DNA of 64,000 bases from Bacillota bacterium (lineage in GTDB: Bacteria; Bacillota; Clostridia; Peptostreptococcales; Anaerovoracaceae): assembly GCA_029006195.1 (NCBI GenBank), contig JAQXGH010000048.1, positions 1 to 64,000 of the forward strand. The letters run 5' to 3'. Position numbers and translations under genes: made by a program. The stretch's first letter is position 1. Each line of letters begins with the position of its first letter. The notes under the pieces are model-generated. The model was given only the letters and a program-made list of their open reading frames with translations, did not search any database and was not told where the DNA came from. Below, piece by piece: positions 30,121-43,540 of the stretch.

Positions 30121-30152
30121 AAAAAGCTTCCCTTTTTGGGAAGCTTTTTTAT
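30121..30152. terminator. Intrinsic terminator after aminotransferase
   Basis: AATAAAAAAGCTTCCC-ttttt-GGGAAGCTTTTTTATT perfect inverted repeat. Confidence 0.92.
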
Positions 30153-30218
30153 TGGGAATTAATGAATAACAATTCAATATATAATATGTATAGTTTTGTT
30201 TTTTACTCAAATTTACGG

Positions 30219-30247
30219 TTGATTTATATAGGCTTTTTGGTTATAAT
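30219..30247 (+). promoter_or_regulatory. Sigma-A-type promoter of candidate sRNA
   Basis: TTGATT (30219-30224), 17-bp spacer, TATAAT (30242-30247). Confidence 0.7.
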
Positions 30248-30253
30248 ACAAGT

Positions 30254-30336
30254 GAAGTTATCCCCCTGATAACTTCATTAATCTCTAATCCCAATACCCC
30301 TTTTAACAAAAGAGACCTTCGGGTCTCTTTTGTTTT
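30254..30336 (+). ncRNA. Candidate small RNA with C-rich loop and linker, ending in an intrinsic terminator
   Basis: 5' hairpin GAAGTTAT-CCCCCTG-ATAACTTC, linker ATTAATCTCTAATCCCAATACCCCTTTT, terminator AACAAAAGAGACC-TTCG-GGTCTCTTTTGTTTT; no credible ORF between promoter and terminator. Confidence 0.55.
30305..30336 (+). terminator. Intrinsic terminator of candidate sRNA
   Basis: AACAAAAGAGACC-TTCG-GGTCTCTTTTGTTTT. Confidence 0.85.
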
Positions 30337-30352
30337 ATGTTATAATAATTTC

Positions 30353-31387
30353 ATGAAGCACATAGTTGAAGAATTTGAAGAAATCATATACGAAAGCGCG
30401 CTCTGGAATTTCTATTTTGACGGAATGAAAGTGGGAGTTTTAGATATCGAAACAACAGGCTTAAATCCATCAAGAAATAAGTTTGTCCTGGGATGTATCT
30501 ACGATGTTCAGTCACATAAACTCCACCAGATTTTAGCTCAGTCAAGAGCAGAGGAAATGCAGAGCTTAGCTGAATACATAAAGCTCATTGATAATTTAGA
30601 TGTTGTATTAACATATAACGGCAGGCATTTTGACATACCTTTCATTCAGAAGAGGATGGAGGTATCAAGAAATGCCGTTAATTATATTATGAGGGGTAGT
30701 GAAGATTGTTTCTTGCCTTACAATCTGGATCTTTATTTAGTGCTTAATGGGTATTCGCCGATAAAGAAACTGGTTCCTAACATGAAACAGAAAACCATCG
30801 AGAACTATATGGGCTTCTGGATGAACAGGGCGGATGAAATCTCTGGTGCTGAAAGTGTCGATCTTTTTAATCATTACGAAGCCACTGGAGATGAAGAAGC
30901 TGAGAAGAAGATCCTGCTCCACAACAATGATGACGTAAGGCAGCTTACTAAACTGTCAAAGGCAGTAATAAAAAGTGACTTTCACAAGGCTATGTTCGCG
31001 CTTGGTTTTCCTGTTAGAAATTTAATTATCAGGAAGATAAGGTTAGAACGCGATGCTTTAGAAATCAAGGGATTGCAACGCGTTAAGGCTATGAATGGAG
31101 TATCGCCAATAGACTATATGGGATATTCGTTCGGTGATTATCCTACTGTATCAAGGTTCAGAAAAGATACGGCTGATTTTTTACTTAGACTTCCTATAAT
31201 CAGGCAGTCAGGAATGGCGCTTGCTGATATTCGAGCAGCTGGACTTGATGAAGAAGAATTCGGAATGTATCCATCTTGTGGAAGTGGTTTTCTCATTTTA
31301 GAGGATGGCAATGGAATCAGACATATGGAAACAAACCATCTCATTAAAGCATTCATAGAGAAATTTATTGATTTCGAACTAAACTAG
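30353..31387 (+). CDS. Ribonuclease H-like domain protein (YprB-like exonuclease)
   Basis: GVLDIETTGLNPSRNKFVLGC (DxE), LTYNGRHFDIPFIQKRM, HNNDDVRQLTKL. Confidence 0.85.
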   Translation: MKHIVEEFEEIIYESALWNFYFDGMKVGVLDIETTGLNPSRNKFVLGCIYDVQSHKLHQILAQSRAEEMQSLAEYIKLIDNLDVVLTYNGRHFDIPFIQKRMEVSRNAVNYIMRGSEDCFLPYNLDLYLVLNGYSPIKKLVPNMKQKTIENYMGFWMNRADEISGAESVDLFNHYEATGDEEAEKKILLHNNDDVRQLTKLSKAVIKSDFHKAMFALGFPVRNLIIRKIRLERDALEIKGLQRVKAMNGVSPIDYMGYSFGDYPTVSRFRKDTADFLLRLPIIRQSGMALADIRAAGLDEEEFGMYPSCGSGFLILEDGNGIRHMETNHLIKAFIEKFIDFELN

Positions 31388-37745: not shown

Positions 37746-37788
37746 TAAATCTATTTGCCATCAATATTTTTGTTGTGGTATAATAAAC

Positions 37789-37889
37789 GTGTTATACGAC
37801 TGACGGATAAGTGGAATTGACCACATGAAGTATAACCGAGGATTACGTCGACCGTCTGGGCATAGTGTCCGGATGATCGACTGTTTTTT
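37789..37889 (+). promoter_or_regulatory. ZTP (pfl motif) riboswitch controlling fhs, terminator-type expression platform
   Basis: P1 GTTATAC (37791-37797)/GTATAAC (37830-37836), P2 GTGG/CCAC, GACTGACGG junction, downstream CCGTCTGGGCA; GACGG (37802-37806) complements CCGTC (37852-37856). Confidence 0.92.
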
Positions 37890-42289: not shown

Positions 42290-43540
42290 ATGAAGATTGA
42301 AATTGGATATGGCGAAGAGAAGAAAAATGTAGAACTCCCTGATAAGCAAGTTATTTCGATCGTAAGACCGAATGATGTTGTTCAGGAAGCGTCTGGAAGA
42401 GCTGCTGTACTTATTGCGCTTGCCAATCCCGTCGGAACACCTAGACTTAGAGATTTAGCTGAACCAGGCGAGAAGATAGTGATCGTAACAAGCGACATAA
42501 CAAGACCGATGCCTTCATACGAAGTGCTGCCGCTTATTGTTGACGAACTCAGTGAAGCTGGAGTTACAGTGGATGACATTACGATCGTATTAGCTAGAGG
42601 CGATCATAGAACTCATACAGAAGAAGAGAAGAGAATGCTTATAGGCAGCACTCTTTACGGACAGGTAAACTGTGTTGAAAGTGATCCGCAGGACTGCGTT
42701 AACATGGGAACTACGAAGCTGGGAACACCGGTGGATATTTCAAGAGTAGTTGCTGAAGCGGATCTTAGAATCTGCATTGGTAATATCGATTTCCACTACT
42801 TTGCAGGTTATTCAGGTGGATCTAAGGCTATAATGCCTGGAACATCAACACTTGAAGCAATCGAGATGAACTACTCTAGAATGAATGATCCTGATGCACA
42901 CATTGGACAGCTTGATGGTAACCCTATCAGGGGCGATATCGATGATGCGGCCAGATTCTGTAAGATAGATTTTATACTTAATGTTGTACTTGATGAGAAA
43001 AAGAAAATCGTATATGCAGTAGCAGGAGATTATCTTAAAGCGCACAGGAAGGGATGCGAATTCCTTGATAAGATGTATAAGGTCGAAATACCTGAGCGCG
43101 CTGATATAGTAATAGCTTCCGCTAACGGAGCACCTAAGGATATTAATCTCTATCAGACAGAAAAGGTTCTTGAAAATGCCAAGTATGCAGTCAAGGACGG
43201 AGGAACAGTAATACTGGTGGGAGCATGCAATGAAGGCATGGGCAATAAGGTATTTGAACAGTGGATGAACGAAGCTGAAAGCCCGCAGTCACTGGTAGAC
43301 CGAATCGGTAGAGAGTTCAAGCTTGGCGGACATAAGGCAGCTGCCATGGCAACAGTAATGGTCAATAGAAAGGTGAATGTCAGTCTGGTATCAGAAATGG
43401 ATGCTGATGCTGTAAGTAAGATGTTCATGACACCTTTTAATAATGTGCAAGATGCTGTGGACGCAGCAATTGCGAAACACGGCAACGAAGCAACAATTAT
43501 AGTAATGCCATTTGGCGGAGCAACTCTGCCAATAGAGTAA
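42290..43540 (+). CDS. larA: Nickel-dependent lactate racemase family protein (LarA-like)
   Basis: LARGDHRTHTEEEKRMLIG, GNIDFHYFAGYSGGSKAIMPG (His/Lys of LarA); start set at ATG 42290. Confidence 0.88.
   Translation: MKIEIGYGEEKKNVELPDKQVISIVRPNDVVQEASGRAAVLIALANPVGTPRLRDLAEPGEKIVIVTSDITRPMPSYEVLPLIVDELSEAGVTVDDITIVLARGDHRTHTEEEKRMLIGSTLYGQVNCVESDPQDCVNMGTTKLGTPVDISRVVAEADLRICIGNIDFHYFAGYSGGSKAIMPGTSTLEAIEMNYSRMNDPDAHIGQLDGNPIRGDIDDAARFCKIDFILNVVLDEKKKIVYAVAGDYLKAHRKGCEFLDKMYKVEIPERADIVIASANGAPKDINLYQTEKVLENAKYAVKDGGTVILVGACNEGMGNKVFEQWMNEAESPQSLVDRIGREFKLGGHKAAAMATVMVNRKVNVSLVSEMDADAVSKMFMTPFNNVQDAVDAAIAKHGNEATIIVMPFGGATLPIE

Follow-up and report, generated by a model that had tools for sequence, protein, structure and literature searches.

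A conserved C-rich small RNA of Peptostreptococcales with a divergent sister in Clostridiaceae and a possible connection to Spo0A

Between two protein-coding genes of an Anaerovoracaceae genome lies what is almost certainly a real, conserved and stand-alone RNA gene, and the family to which it belongs is, as judged from sequence comparison, common to Peptostreptococcales, with a divergent sister in Clostridiaceae. The explanation that we favour, with reasonable though not strong confidence, is that of a trans-acting C-rich antisense RNA that would block G-rich ribosome-binding sites, would be controlled by Spo0A in spore-formers and would have spo0A itself as one of its targets.

The RNA unit and its conservation

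The elements of the unit in the window (the whole stretch of 64,000 nucleotides that was analyzed) are the following:

30121..30152, no strand assigned: strong terminator hairpin behind the aminotransferase gene upstream, read from the sequence, separating the RNA unit from that gene
30219..30247, plus strand: sigma-A-type promoter TTGATT-N17-TATAAT, without a Spo0A-like box
30254..30336, plus strand: small RNA of 83 nt, with a start inferred at about 30254 ± 2 and the 3' end in the U-run past the terminator
30254..30276, plus strand: 5' hairpin GAAGUUAU-CCCCCUG-AUAACUUC, its GGUUAU/AUAACC arms near-invariant among relatives
30262..30266, plus strand: C5 loop (4–6 C among relatives), which would make the first contact with G5-G6 runs in Shine-Dalgarno (SD) sequences
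30277..30304, plus strand: unpaired G-free linker AUUAAUCUCUAAUCCCAAUACCCCUUUU, the most conserved part and proposed second seed
30305..30336, plus strand: intrinsic terminator, a 13-bp stem (30305–30334) plus TT

Reading of the window sequence confirmed every element that an earlier note on this DNA had listed (promoter, hairpin, linker with AATCCC, 13-bp terminator), as well as the separate terminator upstream. The -35 (30219–30224) and -10 (30242–30247) hexamers are spaced by 17 nt and match the consensus at 10 of 12 positions, while the linker carries AATCCC and ATACCCCTTTT. The 83-nt RNA folds as had been drawn, with −28.8 kcal/mol vs. −9.2 ± 2.5 kcal/mol for shuffled sequences (z = −7.8), and the 5' hairpin with its C5 loop was placed correctly, but its stem comprises 9 bp in RNAfold and not the 8 that had been counted. 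Taken alone, the promoter is not beyond chance (it is the best among 4 promoter-like sites in the scan, where shuffles give 2.2), and 2 terminator-like sites were found vs. 0.3 in shuffles; the unit as a whole lies far beyond chance because it is kept throughout the order. The RNA occurs as a single copy within the window's genome.

With a covariance model based on 25 diverse copies, the RNA was located in 205 of 299 genomes and 98 of 135 genera of Peptostreptococcales, which bears out the expectation that hairpin, C-rich linker and terminator would recur in related genomes, and a DNA search recovered it in 75 of 100 relatives. The carriers include Anaerovoracaceae, Romboutsia, Paraclostridium, Alkaliphilus and probably C. 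difficile, together with Emergencia timonensis, Eubacterium pyruvativorans, Tepidibacter and Anaerosolibacter, and wherever the placement of a named carrier was checked it was Peptostreptococcales. In class-wide samples the RNA was essentially confined to this order, with one strong outsider (G236), and in the phylum sample matches were present in only two genomes, both from the window's family. Several weak class-level matches of the covariance model (L118-L122, L129) look like chance.

The 5' hairpin with its C5 loop and the G-poor linker, TCTCTAWTCCCAATACCCCTTTT, are almost invariant across the order; in the alignment, variation is slight in the loop and in the segment UCUCUAWUCCCAAUACCCC, and G is all but missing from the linker. 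Upstream of same-genus orthologues of the exonuclease gene that follows in the window, the RNA is retained almost letter for letter, with only 45–61% identity for the protein itself. Conservation of the 5' hairpin is one of sequence, with little covariation. In the terminator, conversely, the sequence is free to change, yet all 208 cells are paired (100%); of its 13 pairs, 7 vary on both sides, and its covariation score exceeds that of every shuffle. Since the loop (4–6 C) and the length of the linker vary among relatives, there is no conserved reading frame; a coding role was accordingly rejected, as a GTG frame that is open in some species is broken by the variable loop and by linker indels. 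Copy number differs among carriers: Paraclostridium has three copies in tandem, at a spacing of about 198 bp and each under a separate promoter (in Paraclostridium benzoelyticum, L208:2556-3007, each also with a TGTCGAA box), and one genus of family f4 (g559) has up to five.

Two other weak class-level matches (L116, L117) proved real and led to another, likewise near-invariant RNA, GGUUAUUGACCAUAUAACCUCUCAUAAAUUCUCAAUACCCUUUUAUACC with a terminator after it, in family f51 (order of G425), by inference Clostridiaceae. This sister RNA occurs in many genera (loci L116, L117, L423-L447), has a promoter with TTGACA and a TGNCG box, and has no match in Rfam. It keeps the hairpin arms and an AAUACCC-UUUU linker and has lost the C5 loop, so that the effector proper may be the linker.

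Genomic setting: stand-alone unit or leader

In several families the RNA has as its neighbours thiI-nifS(-LUD), encoded on one strand, and asparaginase, pcrA/ligA and an RNase H-like exonuclease, encoded on the other, and lies between the two groups, a shared locus that suggests vertical descent at one place. In the window's family the exonuclease gene (30353) has moved beside the RNA; its start lies less than 30 nt past the terminator in the window, as it does in a number of close relatives, an arrangement that speaks for the RNA being an attenuated 5' leader or other regulatory element of this gene. We regard this as highly improbable, given that an extended -10 of its own (TGTTATAAT, 30338–30346, six bases before the ATG) serves the exonuclease gene, that no alternative antiterminator structure is apparent in the fold of the 83-nt RNA, and that elsewhere the RNA, itself unchanged, has asparaginase, a convergent gene or a gene kilobases away as its next neighbour. 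As a general explanation it is already refuted by the probable C. difficile genome, in which the neighbouring amino-acid ABC gene is convergent to the RNA. A constant downstream gene on the same strand, by which a 5' leader or riboswitch is recognized, was not found among the carriers, whereas an independent promoter, a terminator and a conserved unpaired seed, the general marks of a trans-acting sRNA, are all present. The earlier proposal of a stand-alone sRNA with C-rich segments is thus upheld by the order-wide conservation and the unit's own promoter and terminator, and the leader of the 30353 gene, which had been named as the alternative, is ruled out by the varying or convergent downstream gene.

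The genome here called probable C. difficile has a pilin gene, the spoIIA cluster and pfl genes near the RNA locus, and is very probably that species. As for the exonuclease gene, its extended -10 (window 30338-30355) is kept in the relatives L003, L005, L010 and L027, and its mRNA is probably leaderless.

Spo0A, candidate targets and rival explanations

The motif TGTCG(AA) is the core of the Spo0A box (consensus TGNCGAA). In RNA promoters it occurs immediately before the -35 or inside the spacer, occupying only a few fixed positions. Genomes were scanned for Spo0A_C and the promoters for the TGTCG box, which was found in 24 of 28 genomes with full-length Spo0A vs. 2 of 26 without Spo0A (Fisher 3.7e−9; raw genome counts, which are not phylogenetically independent events). 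Within the window's family alone the counts were 4/8 vs. 0/22 (p = 0.003), at a shuffled background of 5%. Sister promoters in Clostridiaceae carry the box in 20 of 25 cases (background 2.5%), one of them having TGACG, which fits the consensus. Neither Spo0A nor the box was found in the window's genome, an assembly that is 85% complete and with which close relatives agree. Some genomes with Spo0A have no box, its context varies (TGTCGG, TGTCGT and TGTCGC besides TGTCGAA), and one genome rated 100% complete (G047, locus L090) has no Spo0A match, yet a perfect TTTGTCGAA box in its RNA promoter. On balance, this pattern makes it likely that Spo0A controls transcription of the RNA in spore-formers.

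The SD of spo0A is a G5-G6 run in 20 of 21 RNA-bearing genomes when read by eye (C. difficile included) and in 17 of 18 by script; at these loci (L262-L281, L252) it is unlike the typical AGGAGG. Among ordinary translation starts, taken from stretches of roughly 0.3–0.4 Mb per genome, a G5 run precedes 2% in the window's genome, 8% in C. difficile and 13% in G046. In the latter, where the spo0A start codon was chosen by hand, the 5' arm and loop are predicted to pair over 13 bp with spo0A (−21.6 kcal/mol, rank 1 of 325 translation starts), and in the probable C. difficile the loop pairs at −14.4 kcal/mol (rank 14 of 320). Pairing of the linker to spo0A was discarded as unremarkable (rank 141 of 320 in C. 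difficile). Complementarity to the spo0A ribosome-binding site, as would characterize a SpoY-type SD-targeting sRNA, is therefore present. In the control, 8 of 21 clostridial genomes without the RNA also have a G5 run at spo0A, enriched over the background and below the carriers (carriers vs. non-carriers, Fisher 2.6e−4, uncorrected for phylogeny), so the run is not specific to the RNA; moreover, G-rich SDs that complement a C-run are easily found. We therefore put forward spo0A as a direct target only tentatively, as a candidate that may well prove wrong.

The two example targets that had been proposed from the window, the asnA SD and the larA leader, did not hold among orthologues: asnA has ordinary AGGAGG-type SDs with G5 in 0 of 19, and larA has a G5 run in 2 of 14 (in the window's genome larA ranks third of 294 starts for loop pairing). 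What remains of the SD-targeting proposal is its plausibility and a conserved candidate in spo0A. The genome has two LarA-like racemase genes (window 42290-43537 and G000:C1:48679-49917), and the GGGGG leader precedes only the copy in the window.

The favoured mechanism would run as follows. The stand-alone gene would yield a noncoding RNA of about 80 nt from its own promoter, whose C5 loop and linker would pair in trans with G-rich SD regions and thereby block ribosome binding. In spore-forming lineages, Spo0A would control its transcription through the TGTCG(AA) promoter box, and the spo0A mRNA, with its G5-G6 SD, would be one target, closing a feedback loop. Originally tied to Spo0A, the RNA would have been kept in the window's lineage; it persists in the window's organism, for which neither Spo0A nor Hfq was detected, and there would have to act on other mRNAs and without Hfq. 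The predicted pairing with G-rich SDs is the probable mode of action. Hfq was absent from all 30 genomes of the window's family that were searched, the window's genome (G000) included, and was present in most, not all, of the other families searched; since families with and without Hfq carry the RNA in near-invariant form, the window's lineage does not need Hfq for it. Being conserved almost perfectly in a family with no detectable Hfq, this RNA is a promising example of RNA regulation independent of Hfq.

The main rival is a conserved sRNA whose chief role is to bind or titrate a protein or a second RNA; the invariant hairpin and linker would then serve for recognition, not as SD-pairing seeds. 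The near letter-for-letter retention of both parts, together with the scarce covariation in the 5' hairpin, suggests sequence-specific recognition, and the sister's preservation of the arms and AAUACCC after losing the C5 loop, as well as the lack of Hfq in the window's family, point in the same direction. Against it, the linker is G-free and predicted to be unpaired, C-runs are a hallmark of SD-targeting sRNAs, and the complementarity to the spo0A SD is conserved, which leaves this possibility rather unlikely. Slightly less improbable, in our estimate, is an SD-targeting C-rich sRNA with no tie to Spo0A, the TGTCG motif being the site of another regulator and the spo0A G-run coincidental; the varying box contexts, the box in G047 and the G-runs in RNA-free genomes argue for this reading, but it has to contend with the phyletic link between box and Spo0A and with the recurrence of the box, TGACG included, in the Clostridiaceae sister.

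Taken to its furthest extent, the antisense explanation would make the RNA an ancient sporulation-linked sRNA of Peptostreptococcales and Clostridiaceae, forming a feedback loop with Spo0A and acting on other mRNAs with G-rich SDs as well, with the lineages that lost Spo0A having kept the RNA and dropped the box; this broader scenario is speculative and we consider it doubtful. If true, a Spo0A-tied sRNA in two clostridial orders would give the decision to sporulate a further conserved level of post-transcriptional control in Clostridia, which are not known to have the Bacillus phosphorelay.

Comparison with known RNAs

A cmscan of the window and 13 relatives against Rfam 15 gave no match for the RNA at the gathering threshold, and at E < 10 the unit was likewise unmatched, the matches being terminator look-alikes. 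The literature search, which covered the running text of papers, retrieved no description of the RNA and no paper printing its sequence words, although some RNA-seq catalogue of C. difficile or Clostridium probably lists it without a name. The family thus appears new to Rfam and to the searched literature, whereas C-rich trans-acting sRNAs of Gram-positive bacteria are a known kind. It is a nearly invariant bacterial RNA family of about a hundred genera that is missing from Rfam, and its carriers range from gut commensals and rumen bacteria to, probably, C. difficile, with the divergent form in Clostridiaceae.

Membership in the RsaE/RoxS or csRNA type, which the earlier note had invoked, found no match in Rfam 15. 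RsaE/RoxS of Staphylococcus and Bacillus is an independent sRNA of ~100 nt with unpaired C-rich segments and a terminator, conserved order-wide and pairing with G-rich SDs. The RNA described here shares the unpaired C-rich seeds (C5 loop, CCC and CCCC in the linker), a functional resemblance only, and differs in lacking any sequence or covariance match (also at E < 10), in its hairpin, and in a promoter box that would point to Spo0A and not to ResD/Rex. Like the csRNAs of the CiaR regulon in Streptococcus, it is short and C-rich, has a hairpin-linker-terminator layout and sometimes occurs in several copies (in tandem in Paraclostridium); unlike them, it has no CiaR repeat (TTTAAG-N5-TTTAAG) within 30150-30253 and no Rfam csRNA match on its strand, the only one, at 22 bits, being fortuitous and on the opposite strand of a neighbouring terminator.

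In C. difficile, the spo0A mRNA is an sRNA hub, and SpoY (nc020) favours a G-rich RBS-like motif, blocks the spo0A RBS and represses translation (PMC10267692). Complementarity to the spo0A RBS is common to SpoY and our RNA, which are probably distinct, to judge from the estimated locus: SpoY shares its start site with CDIF630_00827, while the RNA, which lies ~22 kb from spoIIAA in the probable C. difficile, is estimated to be near CDIF630_00866, about 40 genes away (based on the SpoY tag, PaLoc tags (PMC11238072), the spoIIAA coordinate (PMC7438776) and the gene order in L251/L261). A further likeness, by description, is to solB of C. acetobutylicum, which is likewise a clostridial sRNA and is connected with the phase under Spo0A control (PMC3879012). 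Elsewhere in the window, a ZMP/ZTP riboswitch (Rfam RF01750) is located at 37786-37868.
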